Source: Candidatus Dadabacteria bacterium (GTDB lineage: Bacteria > Desulfobacterota_D > UBA1144 > Nemesobacterales > JADFKM01). From it: DNA of 16,193 bases. The stretch covers positions 1 to 16,193 of the forward strand of contig JADFKM010000046.1 of NCBI GenBank assembly GCA_022564935.1, given 5' to 3'. The position numbers and the translations under genes are program-made. Position 1 is the first letter of the stretch. Each line of letters starts with the position of its first letter. Positions 5,262 through 16,144 of the stretch are shown piece by piece. The notes under the pieces are model-generated. The model searched no databases. It worked only from the letters and a program-made list of their open reading frames with translations, and had not been told where the DNA came from.

Positions 5262-5462
5262 TGGGGTTGTGACAACTTTGGCAGAATGCGGAAAACGGCG
5301 ACAGTCGGCTTGACCTCTCCCCACAGTTCATACCACGGCAAGTGAGAGTTCTGGTTCAATTTTATCACTGTCTATCTTCTGCTCCAACTCATTCTTGAAT
5401 TCCATAGGCGTCATATAGTTCAGCGAGCTGTGTGGACGGCAGGTGTTGTAGTCAATCCGCCA
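5262..5462 (-). mobile_element. IS3-family insertion sequence remnant (3' end)
   Basis: Only the right end of an IS3-type element survives. On the minus strand 5462-5328 encodes the end of the DDE transposase OrfB: WRIDYNTCRPHSSLNYM, then TPMEFKNELEQKIDS..., stopping at TGA 5330-5328. The DYN-x-x-RPHSSL-x-Y-x-TP-x-EF signature is diagnostic of IS3 transposase C-termini. The 66 bases beyond the stop should be the non-coding element end, which probably terminates at TGGGGTTGTGACAACTTTGG starting at 5262, five bases after the GNAT stop. The rest of the element, including the DDE residues and the left inverted repeat, is missing, and the homology breaks at about 5462. It cannot transpose on its own. 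Confidence 0.8.
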
Positions 5463-6134
5463 AAGTTTGAGACGGCCAAGGCTCAGTTAGCTTTAAATGA
5501 GGCCGCAATCAAACCACTCGGTGAGGTTATTCGAGCACACGGTCTGGGAAACAAGGTTAGCGTGTCGTTACTTCATAAGCATTTTAATCTCTATGAAGAT
5601 GAGCTTCTCGTAAGAAACTTTGAAAATAATGCTCTTGAAATTAAGCCTGAATCAGGCACGGGACATAGAACCTTGCCCTACATGTGGTCATTTTCCAAGC
5701 TTCGCGCAGAAGATGACTTATCTGTTTATCCTGTAGAGTTTATCGGAAAGAAAGACGAAACAGCCGAATATGCAAATATTGCAGATTCTGTTTTGGAGAA
5801 TGAGGCATTCCTAAAGGATTTCTCTGCAAAATTGAAGGAACTGCATGTTGAGAATACTTTTGGGTTAAGTTTGATTCCCCACGGTCTATTCCAGATACCC
5901 GCGAAGCACACGCTATTTGAAACAGACGATATTTCAAATCGCAGACTCAATATCTCCATGAAGCCGTTAGACGAAATTGAGGCCATCGAGACTACTCGCA
6001 CACTTTTCATGTTTCCAACTGAGGAGAGCCTCGAACTCGAAGATATGTCGGTGGAGTGTGGAGTTCATTGCGGTGTACACTGTGGGATTCATTGTGGTGT
6101 ACACTGTGGGATTCATTGCGGCATTCACTTCTAG
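5430..6134 (+). CDS. Unknown protein with six C-terminal CG[V/I]H repeats, 5' end disrupted by the IS remnant
   Basis: I do not recognise this family. The open frame begins with GTG 5430, but its first 11 codons are antisense to the IS3 transposase remnant, so they are not native. Native-looking sequence starts near 5463 (KFETAKAQLALNEAAIKPLG), and the original start is probably lost; the next in-frame ATG is only near 5681. The body is soluble with no signal peptide, and contains a segment VSVSLLHKHFNLYEDELLV. The last 25 residues are six tandem tetrapeptides CGVH or CGIH (6057-6128) followed by Phe and stop. Six Cys plus six His in a regular array could bind soft or borderline metals such as Cu, Zn or Ni; this is inference. 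Base composition is more AT-rich than its neighbours and an attC-like palindrome follows its stop, suggesting acquired DNA. Whether it is still translated is unclear. Confidence 0.55.
   Translation: MWTAGVVVNPPKFETAKAQLALNEAAIKPLGEVIRAHGLGNKVSVSLLHKHFNLYEDELLVRNFENNALEIKPESGTGHRTLPYMWSFSKLRAEDDLSVYPVEFIGKKDETAEYANIADSVLENEAFLKDFSAKLKELHVENTFGLSLIPHGLFQIPAKHTLFETDDISNRRLNISMKPLDEIEAIETTRTLFMFPTEESLELEDMSVECGVHCGVHCGIHCGVHCGIHCGIHF
6057..6128 (+). repeat. Six 12-bp tandem repeats encoding CG[V/I]H
   Basis: Six in-frame 12-base units of the form TGY GGN RTH CAY. Units 2-3 and 4-5 form a higher-order 24-base repeat (6069-6092 and 6093-6116) that differs at one base. Synonymous changes among units (TGT/TGC, CAT/CAC, GGA/GGT/GGG/GGC) keep the amino acids constant apart from Val/Ile, which suggests selection on the peptide rather than recent slippage alone. 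Confidence 0.9.
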
Positions 6135-9509: not shown

Positions 9510-10511
9510 ATGGATAGAATCGGACTGGTTACCCCATACTGGGGCGATTTAACTAAGGATGAGCTGGTGGAGTTTGCCGCCGCGGCCGAGGATCTGGGAT
9601 ACGATTCCCTCTGGGTTCCCGAGATGTGGGGAAGGGATGCCCTGTCGCTCCTTTCAGCGCTTGCCGTAAAGACACACAAGATCAAGTTGTGCACGGGGGT
9701 AGTTTCGGTGTTCAGCCGCACTCCCGCGGCCATTGCTTCGGCCATCGCCACAATAGATGAGCTTTCCGGGGGGAGGGCGGTGCTTGGCCTGGGCACAAGC
9801 GGGCCCGCCGTGATCGAGAACTGGCACGGGATGAAGTTCGACAGGCCGCTCCAAAGAATCAGAGAGTACGTGGAAATAATAAGGCTTGTTCTCAGCGGAG
9901 AGAGGGTGAACTACGAGGGGGAGATTTTTTCACTCAGGAACTTCCGTCTGCAGTTTAGTCCCCCTAGGAGTGATATCCCGATCTTTATAGCCTCGCTCGG
10001 GCCTAAGAGCCTCTGCCTCACCGCAGAGCTTGCAGACGGCTGGATACCTTTTCTAGTTCCCAGAGAGGCTATAAAGAACACCATAGGCAGCGCTCTCTCT
10101 GAGGCCGGGCCAAATGCAAGAGAAACCGGGGATATAGCGGTCGCCCCGTACATACCTTCGTGCGTTTTCCCCGACGTTGAGGCTTCGGTAAGGGTGGTTA
10201 AGGAGCACGTTGCTTACTATGTGGGAGGGATGGGGGATTATTACCTCAACGCGCTCTCAAGGTGGGGCTTCGGGCATGAAGCGGAGGTAATAAGAGGCGC
10301 ATGGGAGAAGGGGAACAAACAGGAGGCGCTTGACGGGGTTACCGATAGGTTGATAGGGGCCGTCTCGATCGTGAGCGGTGGCGCTGCCGAAGGAGTGGTT
10401 AAGATAAGGGATTTTATCGGTGCCGGAGCTACGCTGCCCGTGGTGATGTTCCCGTCAAAGGCGACGCGCGAGATGGTACGCTCCACTATGGAAGCGCTGG
10501 CCCCCGCTTAG
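9510..10511 (+). CDS. LLM-class flavin/F420-dependent oxidoreductase
   Basis: A 333-residue TIM-barrel oxidoreductase of the luciferase-like monooxygenase superfamily, most like the F420-dependent branch. Features: an N-terminal barrel strand (RIGLVTPYWG), LGYDSLWVPEMWGRDAL at about 30-46, the TGVVSVFSRTPAAIASAIAT region at 62-81, ELSGGRAVLGLGTSG at 84-98, FDRPLQRIREYVEIIRLVL at about 110-128, and IPIFIASLGPKSLCLTAELADGWIP at 156-180. These are the standard cofactor-pocket signatures; whether it uses F420 or FMN cannot be decided here. The substrate is unknown. Length is normal. It stands alone, convergent with the sigma factor gene. Confidence 0.9.
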   Translation: MDRIGLVTPYWGDLTKDELVEFAAAAEDLGYDSLWVPEMWGRDALSLLSALAVKTHKIKLCTGVVSVFSRTPAAIASAIATIDELSGGRAVLGLGTSGPAVIENWHGMKFDRPLQRIREYVEIIRLVLSGERVNYEGEIFSLRNFRLQFSPPRSDIPIFIASLGPKSLCLTAELADGWIPFLVPREAIKNTIGSALSEAGPNARETGDIAVAPYIPSCVFPDVEASVRVVKEHVAYYVGGMGDYYLNALSRWGFGHEAEVIRGAWEKGNKQEALDGVTDRLIGAVSIVSGGAAEGVVKIRDFIGAGATLPVVMFPSKATREMVRSTMEALAPA

Positions 10512-10559: not shown

Positions 10560-11762
10560 TTAGGCGCTGATGAAGTCCTTGAGTAAAGAACCTACTTCGA
10601 AGTTCCTGAGCTTTTTCAGCGCTCTTCTTTCAATTTGCCTTATGCGCTCTCTCGTGAGGGAGTACCTATTGCCTATTTCGTCAAGCGTGTACGCATCTTC
10701 GTAGCCGATACCGAATCTCATCCTCAGGATATCCTCTTCCCTAAGGCTTAAGTGGGTAAACGCTTCTTCAATCTGCTTGTTCATAGCGACGATCGTCAAA
10801 TTGGCGTCGGTGGAGGACCTAGTGTCGGGAATGTTGTCAATGATCGTTGTGCCCTTTTCCCCGTTGCCTTTCGTTCCCAACGAGTCGAAATAAACTATGC
10901 TCGTAGTCGCTTTGATTAGCTTCTGGACTTTCTGTACGGTGAGCCCCGCTTCATTAGCTACGTCTTCGATCTTCGGCTCGACGCCGTTATGCTTCTTGAG
11001 CATGGATGTGGTCTTGTAAACCTTGTTTGCCTGTTCGAGGACTCGTATCGGAACTCTTATCAACCTCGTCTGGTCGAGCAGTGCCCTGGATATGCCCTGT
11101 GTAATCCACCAGGAGGCGTAAGTAGAGAACCTGTAGCCCCTTGTCGGGTCGAACTTCTCCACGGCCCGCATAAGCCCTATGTTTCCCTCTTGAATAAGGT
11201 CTGCGAAGGGAAGCCCCCGGCCTATATATTTTTTGGCTATGCTTATAACAAGCCTGAGGTTGGATTTTAGGAATCTACTTTTAAGCGTCTTTGCCCTGTG
11301 ATGATAGACCTTAACGAGGGAGTGGAGCCTTTTTATCCTTCTTGCGATCTGGGAAGTGTTGTCGGCCGTATAGGACGCGCCGTTTGCCCCGTTTGATTTT
11401 TTCGGATTGGAAGGTGGTGTGTAGGTCGTAGGAACGCCTTCACCTGTATCGAAAAATTTAAGCAATTCTTCAAGCTTTTGCGCTTTTGAATCGTATCTCT
11501 TAAATGTCATGGAGGTTTGAATCTCTTCGCTCGGACTCAGAAGCGACTCCCCTCCAACCTCTTTAAAATAGGACTGTAGAAGCTTGTGCTCTTCTTTCGC
11601 AACAAATTGGTTTTTCTCTTTTTCGTTTTGTTCTTTTTCTTCCGGTTCTGTATAATCCTCCAAAGGGGACTCCGAGTCGTCACTCGAAATGAAACCGTCT
11701 TCATACATGTATGAATCGATTTCAAATTCGCTTACGTGGTTATCTATGTTTTTATGTCCCAT
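10560..11762 (-). CDS. Sigma-70-family RNA polymerase sigma factor (group 2, RpoD/RpoS-like)
   Basis: A 400-residue sigma factor that directs RNA polymerase to promoters. An acidic N-terminus (1-55) is followed by region 1.2 (about 63-85, [20 protein letters not shown]), a low-complexity spacer (105-137), region 2 (163-235, with [19 protein letters not shown] and [20 protein letters not shown]), region 3 (about 240-300) and region 4 (335-390, [20 protein letters not shown] helix-turn-helix). The -10-reading segment reads [10 protein letters not shown] rather than the housekeeping WWIRQAITRA, and VPIRVLE replaces VPIHxxE, so it is likely a stress or developmental factor rather than the primary one. 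Start ATG 11762 is chosen because GGAGGGAG lies 5-7 bases upstream; an upstream in-frame extension to 11843 has no support and would overlap the promoter. A sigma-54 promoter precedes it. Confidence 0.92.
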
Positions 11763-11794
11763 AGGATCTCCCTCCTTACTTACAGCGGTAATAG

Positions 11795-11811
11795 TTGCAA
11801 TGTTCGTGCCA
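11795..11811 (-). promoter_or_regulatory. Sigma-54 (-24/-12) promoter of the sigma factor gene
   Basis: Minus strand: TGGCACG (11811-11805), four bases, TTGCAA (11800-11795). GG (11810-11809) and GC (11798-11797) are separated by exactly 10 bases, a full match to the TGGCAC-N5-TTGCW consensus. Predicted start of transcription is near 11785, about 23 bases before the ATG at 11762 and just ahead of the ribosome site. Confidence 0.7.
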
Positions 11812-11825
11812 AAACATCTATTTTC

Positions 11826-11837: not shown

Positions 11838-11853
11838 ACCCATTCACTTTTTT

Positions 11854-11865: not shown

Positions 11866-11917
11866 TAATATTCCATTGTTTTTATTACTTTTTCTGACAC
11901 ATCGCTATCCCGAGCTT

Positions 11918-11930
11918 GACAAAAATTGTC
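11918..11930. promoter_or_regulatory. Inverted repeat GACAA-AAA-TTGTC
   Basis: Perfect 5-base arms centred at about -139 from the predicted sigma-54 start, a usual distance for an enhancer-binding activator site. It also contains a TTGACA that could be a plus-strand -35, but no good -10 follows. Confidence 0.35.
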
Positions 11931-11960
11931 TCGGTATCCAACATGAATTGCGAAGCCTAC

Positions 11961-12524: not shown

Positions 12525-13511
12525 ATGGAATTTTCTGACATTGCAGAAATGTCTTCGGCATTCTGGGGATCGAGGATACTTCATGTGGCGGTGAAGCTGG
12601 GCGTCTTCGATACGCTTGAGGAGGAGAGCATGACGGTGGACGAGGCCGCGCGTGCGCTCGGCACAGAGGGGCGCGCTACGTGGCTTTTCTTTAACGCGCT
12701 CGTAGCCCTTAAGCTTTTGCATAAAGAAGGGCAGAGTTACTCAAATACCGATGCCGCGTCTAAATACCTTGTAAAGACCTCGCCGCGCTACTTCGGGCAC
12801 ATGGTGCTTTTTGAAGAGAGCCTGTGGGAGCTCTGGGGAAGGCTTGAGAACTCGCTTAAGACGGGCGAGCCGTCGAGGAAGCCCGATATGTTCCAGGATT
12901 TAGAAGAAAATACCGAGAGGTTCATCATGGCCATGCACTCACTCGTATCCGCGAGGGGCGACGACGCCGTCTTGGCTTCGATGCTGGGCCTCGGCGGAGT
13001 GAAGACCGTCCTAGATGTCGGCTCCGGCCCCGGCACCTATCCAATCACGTTCCTAAACAAATTCCCACACTTAGAAATCACCATCTTCGACCTTCCCGGA
13101 ACCCTTGCGGTAACCCGCAGGGTGCTATCCGGGCAGGGTATGGAGGGGAGAATCAAGCTCCTTGAAGGCGACTACATCACCGACGACCTTCCCGGTGGGT
13201 TCGACCTCATCATGCTCTCGAACATCATCCACGGCGAGAGCGAGGAAGTGAACCGTAGCCTGATGGGCAAAATTTACAAGTCCCTCAATCCCGGCGGAAG
13301 GCTGGTCATTAAAGACCACATACTCAATGACGACATGACGAGCCCTGCGGTGGGCGCGATATTTTCCATCCAGATGCTGCTGTCGGCAAAGGGGAGGGAC
13401 TACTCCTTCACGGAGGTAAAAGAGTGGCTCCATTGTTGCAGCTTCAAAAACATCGAGTGGGTGCGCCTCGAGCACCCCATCAACTCCTCGCTTGTGATTG
13501 GAGAGAGGTAG
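12525..13511 (+). CDS. Family-2 O-methyltransferase with N-terminal dimerisation domain
   Basis: A 328-residue SAM-dependent O-methyltransferase of the plant-COMT/hydroxyneurosporene type (Methyltransf_2). An N-terminal winged-helix dimerisation domain (about 10-85, with MTVDEAARALG and TWLFFNALVALKLL) precedes the Rossmann domain: motif I VLDVGSGPG at 162-170, acidic Asp189 (IFDLPG), EGDYITDDLPGGFDLIMLSN at 214-233, and IIHGESEE at 234-241, where His236 is the likely catalytic base (the usual motif is LHDWxDE). The KSLNPGGRLVIKD segment at 252-264 is typical. The substrate, generally a hydroxyl on a phenolic, polyketide or carotenoid, is unknown. AGGAGGG four bases before ATG 12525 fixes the start; a 9-codon upstream ORF (12486-12515) ends inside it. 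Confidence 0.9.
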   Translation: MEFSDIAEMSSAFWGSRILHVAVKLGVFDTLEEESMTVDEAARALGTEGRATWLFFNALVALKLLHKEGQSYSNTDAASKYLVKTSPRYFGHMVLFEESLWELWGRLENSLKTGEPSRKPDMFQDLEENTERFIMAMHSLVSARGDDAVLASMLGLGGVKTVLDVGSGPGTYPITFLNKFPHLEITIFDLPGTLAVTRRVLSGQGMEGRIKLLEGDYITDDLPGGFDLIMLSNIIHGESEEVNRSLMGKIYKSLNPGGRLVIKDHILNDDMTSPAVGAIFSIQMLLSAKGRDYSFTEVKEWLHCCSFKNIEWVRLEHPINSSLVIGER

Positions 13512-15658: not shown

Positions 15659-16144
15659 ATGAGTAAAGGATTTGTCAAGGTCGCATTGGTCGCAGTATTG
15701 GCTGCGGTTCTGTCTATGCCGTGGTCGGCAGAGGCAGAAGAGGGTCTTTTGGGGGTGGAGTTCGCTTTTACGGTCGGCGCCCAAGTAGGTCCTTTTGATA
15801 CGGACGCAGGCGTGTTCGTGGCCGGAGAGATCGGGATTCCCATAGCACAGGCGGGCCCGGGGGTTTTCATGGGACTCATGAACATCGGTTGGTCTCAGAC
15901 GGATGACGACTTGATTTTTGAGCCGACGATCAACGCCGTGGCGCCGGGGCCGATCCTGACTCCCATGCTGCTGCGTGACTGGCAAGGCGACGTCGAGAAA
16001 GCCGCAGGCGGCGTGCCCATGGGGCGGGTCGGCCAGCCCGACGAGGTGGCGGAAGCCGTCGTCTGGCTGTGCTCCGATCGCGCCAGCTTCATCACCGGTC
16101 ATGTGCTGCCGATCGACGGTGGCATGATGTGCAAGGTCGGCTGA
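15659..16144 (+). CDS. Chimeric ORF: secreted/outer-membrane-type N-terminus fused to SDR C-terminus
   Basis: Residues 1-26 are a clear Sec signal peptide (MSKGFVKVALVAVLAAVLSM, cleavage after AEA). Residues 27 to about 90 are glycine-rich with alternating hydrophobics, like the start of an outer-membrane beta-barrel or similar exported protein. From about residue 90 the sequence is the C-terminal third of a short-chain dehydrogenase: INAVAPGPILTPML at 91-104, VPMGRVGQPDEVAEAVVWL at 119-137, and SDRASFITGHVLPIDGG at 139-155. The Rossmann GxxxGxG and the YxxxK catalytic residues are absent, so it cannot be a working SDR, and an exported SDR tail makes no sense. GC rises sharply at about 15928. 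AGGGAGGAG before ATG 15659 supports the native start of the N-terminal part. An assembly join or a recent recombination is likely. Confidence 0.75.
   Translation: MSKGFVKVALVAVLAAVLSMPWSAEAEEGLLGVEFAFTVGAQVGPFDTDAGVFVAGEIGIPIAQAGPGVFMGLMNIGWSQTDDDLIFEPTINAVAPGPILTPMLLRDWQGDVEKAAGGVPMGRVGQPDEVAEAVVWLCSDRASFITGHVLPIDGGMMCKVG

Follow-up and report, generated by a model that had tools for sequence, protein, structure and literature searches.

A probable sigma-54 promoter before a group-2 sigma factor gene of a Dadabacteria genome, with a putative activator site shared with type IV pilin genes

Few cascades in which sigma-54 controls a group-2 sigma factor have been described, and the RpoN-RpoS pathway of Borrelia is the standard case. 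The hrpL gene of Pseudomonas syringae is an RpoN-controlled sigma gene as well, but its product is an ECF factor (group 4), unlike the group-2 factor considered here. The Rrp2-RpoN-RpoS pathway of Borrelia burgdorferi (PMC2940757, PMC11109971) places a sigma-70-family gene under the control of sigma-54 and of a response regulator that acts as an enhancer-binding protein. The locus analyzed here would share this wiring, as judged from its sequence, but its target is one of several RpoD-like paralogues and not RpoS, its upstream region carries a conserved repeat common to pilin genes, and there is no evidence here of BosR or of a virulence link.

The control of pilin genes by PilS-PilR and sigma-54 in Pseudomonas aeruginosa, Geobacter sulfurreducens and Dichelobacter nodosus (PMC6058289, PMC2725144) offers a second comparison. 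Shared features are a sigma-54 promoter with an upstream activator site before the pilin gene, the position of pilS-pilR next to pilC, and a regulon reaching surface functions. In contrast to these systems, the conserved site found here forms a clean palindrome, TGACA-N5-TGTCA, and a group-2 sigma gene is part of the proposed regulon, for which a limited literature search returned no PilR report. The fliA operon of G. sulfurreducens (PMC2725144) likewise has a sigma-54 promoter before another sigma gene, but FliA belongs to group 3.

The locus lies in a stretch of 16,193 nt that was analyzed as a whole (the window). With a probability of roughly 0.85, we consider positions 11796-11811 to be a real sigma-54 promoter that drives a group-2 sigma gene belonging to a pilin-type regulon, with a PilR-type protein as the most likely activator. 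This reading is based on the conservation of the promoter and of an upstream repeat, on their arrangement being shared with pilin genes, and on the presence of a pilC-pilS-pilR cluster. If true, it would provide a second cascade of this kind, in an unrelated and apparently uncultured order, linked to type IV pili by its activator site.

The sigma factor gene and its -24/-12 element

The features of the locus are as follows.

9510-10511, plus strand: LLM-class F420-dependent oxidoreductase-like gene, convergent with the sigma gene (NCBIfam matches)
10560-11762, minus strand: gene of a group-2 sigma-70-family factor, 400 aa, with regions 1.2, 2, 3 and 4 (Pfam and clade placement)
11762-11760, minus strand: start ATG of the sigma gene
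11777-11770, minus strand: predicted ribosome-binding site AAGGAGGG, 7 nt upstream of the ATG, read from the sequence
11811-11796, minus strand: -24/-12 sigma-54 promoter element TGGCACGAACATTGCA, an exact consensus match
11917-11931, minus strand: inverted repeat AGACAATTTTTGTCA, putative enhancer-binding-protein site (UAS), 120 nt upstream of the -24 box
12525-13511, plus strand: O-methyltransferase-like gene on the divergent side (Pfam PF00891)

In the sigma protein, sigma-70 regions 2, 3 and 4 exceeded the Pfam cut-offs, while region 1.2 reached 18.3 bits against a cut-off of 22 bits. Its nearest solved relatives are the primary sigma factors SigA/RpoD. With the RpoS family model TIGR02394 the protein scored 248 bits, well below the cut-off of 378.7, so it is not an RpoS orthologue. 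Eight paralogous matches to it were found in its own genome, and up to 18 in the genomes of relatives. On the basis of the Pfam regions, the resemblance to SigA/RpoD, the TIGR02394 score and the paralogue counts, the protein was assigned to group 2, as one of the many RpoD-like paralogues rather than RpoS. The protein is close to the primary sigma without being it. An earlier note on this DNA had called it a group-2 factor, which is right, and had compared the locus with the RpoN-RpoS pathway of Borrelia, a comparison that holds for the wiring and fails for the identity of the target as RpoS. Across the order, RpoD-like sigma paralogues are unusually numerous per genome (again up to 18 matches).

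A longer version of the open reading frame would begin with the ATG at position 11843, but this start was rejected because it is located 5′ of the -24/-12 element. The ATG at 11762 is preceded at 7 nt by AAGGAGGG, in keeping with the well-placed ribosome site noted before. Neither neighboring gene is proposed as part of the switch. The oxidoreductase-like gene also adjoins the sigma gene in genomes G003 and G001 (loci L082 and L077, respectively), and a homologue of the O-methyltransferase-like gene is found on the same side of the sigma gene in G003 (L082).

The element TGGCACGAACATTGCA shows no mismatch to TGGCACG-N4-TTGCA, and its GG-N10-GC spacing is exact, as the earlier note had stated. 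It is placed 49 nt 5′ of the start codon and on the same (minus) strand as the gene. Transcription from a sigma-54 promoter is RpoN-dependent and is expected to start approximately 12 nt 3′ of the GC; counted from the GC of the -12 box, the predicted transcript would start at about 11785 and have a leader of about 23 nt. In a scoring matrix made from the published consensus, without fitting to a site set, TGGCACGAACATTGCA has the top possible score, and no site scoring as high occurred in any of 30 shuffled windows. Weaker sites (score >11) were found about twice per shuffled window, so the motif alone is only moderately convincing. At the level of the whole genome TGGCN7TTGC is not enriched (49 occurrences versus 66 for the reversed control). 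The frequency of weaker matches and the lack of genome-wide enrichment both favor the alternative that the element is a chance match and that an ordinary promoter drives the gene, but the comparison of orthologues and paralogues described below makes this highly improbable.

Conservation of the promoter and of the upstream repeat

Orthology was assigned by synteny and by a tree comprising 75 sigma paralogues of related genomes, in place of plain similarity. The sigma gene of the window falls into a single 17-member clade (SH-aLRT 100), and it is this clade that the promoter-bearing genes form. Upstream DNA is readable for 16 of its 17 members, the remaining one being truncated where its contig stops. 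All 16 readable members have a -24/-12 element in the 400 nt before the gene, compared with 1 of the 57 other paralogues (Fisher p ~3e-15, a value inflated by near-identical genomes within a genus, although members of the clade come from four families of the order), and such an element occurs in 1.6% of shuffled upstream regions. In an alignment of 12 divergent members anchored at the promoter, hardly any columns other than the promoter bases are conserved over a stretch of 96 nt.

This difference between orthologues and paralogues, together with the linked inverted repeat, rules out a chance match statistically for the lineage. The comparative evidence settles that the element is real, and the observation is confirmed. 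The conservation of the GG/GC bases in orthologues, which the earlier note had proposed as a check, is thus found in 16 of 16 readable cases.

Sigma-54 promoters are recognized, among other features, by an activator site located roughly 80-150 nt upstream. The repeat AGACAATTTTTGTCA deviates by one mismatch from TGACA-N5-TGTCA. Allowing at most one mismatch, this repeat was identified in 15 of the 16 readable orthologues versus 1 of 57 other paralogues (p ~2e-13), and in 14 of these 15 its distance to the -24 box is 103-120 nt. The exception is G019 (275 nt). The orthologue of G017 has the promoter and no repeat, which counts against the main reading. A scan for a conserved IHF site between the repeat and the promoter gave no consistent one. 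The earlier note had also postulated an RpoN-to-sigma cascade coupled to an enhancer-binding activator; the cascade gains support from the promoter in 16 of 16 readable orthologues and from the conserved repeat, and the coupling from the placement of that repeat at enhancer distance.

At the G019 locus (L050) the repeat and the promoter are separated by about 165 nt more than elsewhere among the orthologues, an excess that looks like the insertion of a short element.

Genes sharing the arrangement and the candidate activator

The repeat, spacer and promoter at fixed spacing gave 20 matches in 43 genomes of the order, and the reversed control gave none. Ten matches precede intact or contig-cut sigma genes of the clade and one precedes a truncated copy. 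Others lie before genes encoding type IV pilins (G019 and G017) and subtilisin-like proteases (G027, G021 and G035), while four have no clear target gene or an uncharacterized one. With one mismatch allowed, pilins of G000 (the genome of the window), G003, G015 and G025 (two) were added, along with diguanylate cyclases, response regulators and a glycogen phosphorylase. The pilin of the window's own genome has a weak -12 box, TTGTA, which counts against the main reading.

Since the repeat and promoter are common to genes of type IV pilins, secreted proteases and signaling proteins, the sigma gene is assigned to a pilin-type regulon. The stress or developmental regulon suggested earlier was not borne out, these three categories being the co-regulated candidates. 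The conserved activator site, its presence before pilin and protease genes, and the delimitation of a specific sigma clade are new relative to the earlier note. A specific function can in this way be proposed for one of many RpoD-like paralogues, and the motif pair can be used to chart the regulon.

Two further observations concern individual loci. At L325 (G008:C113) the repeat and promoter precede a truncated N-terminus of a sigma gene, a decayed duplicate. In the window's own genome, at L089:3016-3087 (G000:C85:36015-36086, minus strand), three near-perfect sigma-54 elements follow one another in tandem over 72 nt, and no gene is clearly placed downstream of them.

Six intact genes encoding enhancer-binding proteins (bEBPs) and one split frame were distinguished in the genome of the window. 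The GAFTGA motif is present in four of the bEBPs, and GSFTGA or GAFSGA in the others. One regulator with GAFTGA is encoded in a cluster with pilC and a sensor kinase gene, i.e. in the pilC-pilS-pilR arrangement. A simple hydropathy scan gave five membrane segments for the putative PilS, for which six are expected. The genome contains PilS-PilR genes and a pilin gene that shares the activator site. PilR acting with sigma-54 is a known activator of pilin genes (PMC6058289), and because pilins share the repeat, the PilR-type protein of the pilC-pilS cluster is the leading candidate and most likely the activator that would bind it. Literature searches on PilR site sequences and on Dadabacteria sigma factors yielded no paper that deals directly with either.

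The distribution of PilR orthologues and of the sigma clade across genomes is correlated: 13 genomes have both, 22 have neither and four each have only one of the two (p ~1e-4, a value that ignores phylogeny, the 22 genomes with neither representing about three clades). A strong PilR match is absent from four genomes with the sigma gene (G008, G013, G019 and G035), at a cut-off of 1e-100 that would hide fragments. Genera that lack PilR are poorer in other bEBPs as well, and the co-occurrence therefore does not point to PilR specifically.

These last two results, like the number of candidate bEBPs in the genome, are compatible with the same promoter and cascade operating with a different activator: the repeat may be bound by a non-PilR bEBP, such as the L099 regulator encoded near a prepilin peptidase or another NtrC-family protein. 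We regard this as a possible but less probable arrangement, given that the repeat precedes pilins, the classic PilR target (PMC6058289), in five genomes and that the L099 protein has GAFSGA in place of GAFTGA.

With a PilR-type activator, as we prefer, the switch could operate as follows. The phosphorylated enhancer-binding protein would bind TGACA-N5-TGTCA about 120 nt upstream, loop to the RNA polymerase-sigma-54 complex at the -24/-12 element and open the promoter by ATP hydrolysis. The sigma factor would then be made and would redirect core polymerase to its own promoters, so that a PilS/PilR-type system with RpoN would switch on both the pilin and the sigma gene. Whether this extends across the uncultured order, with the pilin two-component system and sigma-54 also turning on a dedicated group-2 sigma factor and surface or pilin sensing feeding a second sigma program, is a proposition to which we give even odds.

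In the genome of the window, pilR is followed by another group-2 sigma gene (L100:3022-6256, G000:C37). A sigma gene beside pilR was rejected as a conserved feature: none was present in the 1.5-kb flanks of other PilR loci, and this gene belongs to another sigma clade.

The rpoN gene and other features of the window

An RpoN domain was not found in the genome of the window, the assembly of which is 88.6% complete, while rpoN is present in 55 of 60 relatives. In relatives the gene is located behind leuC-leuD, in the block rpoN-hpf-ptsN-hprK-rapZ; in the genome of the window a different gene comes after leuC-leuD, and a search for hprK there, run without a positive control, gave no match. The block was either moved into the missing 11% of the assembly or lost. 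Loss of rpoN by the species, leaving the promoter as a relic or the gene under an undetected sigma-70 promoter, would explain the missing domain, the altered surroundings of leuD and the lack of an hprK match. We consider it unlikely, since the species retains a -24/-12 element of maximum score and six intact bEBPs, and a relocated block could be missing from an assembly of this completeness. Moreover, two near-complete relatives that lack rpoN (G004 and G009) are also without close relatives of the PilR-type bEBP and without enrichment of the repeat. As PilR-type regulators, repeat enrichment and a perfect promoter are all kept here, unlike the first two in G004 and G009, we think that rpoN exists in the organism but was not assembled, and that RpoN would use the promoter.

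Three other parts of the window deserve mention. Positions 1-2050 have a G+C content of 31-39%, compared with about 53% over most of the remaining sequence, and include a tyrosine recombinase gene (87-1271) whose product has a C-terminus resembling a zinc ribbon; this looks like a foreign or chimeric segment. The open reading frame at 5430-6134 has no Pfam match and encodes a C-terminal Cys-Gly-x-His repeat (CGVHCGVHCGIHCGVHCGIHCGIHF), possibly indicating metal binding or a modified peptide. The open reading frame at 15659-16144 combines an N-terminus like that of secreted or outer-membrane proteins with the C-terminal portion of a short-chain dehydrogenase (PF13561), which may reflect misassembly near the contig end.
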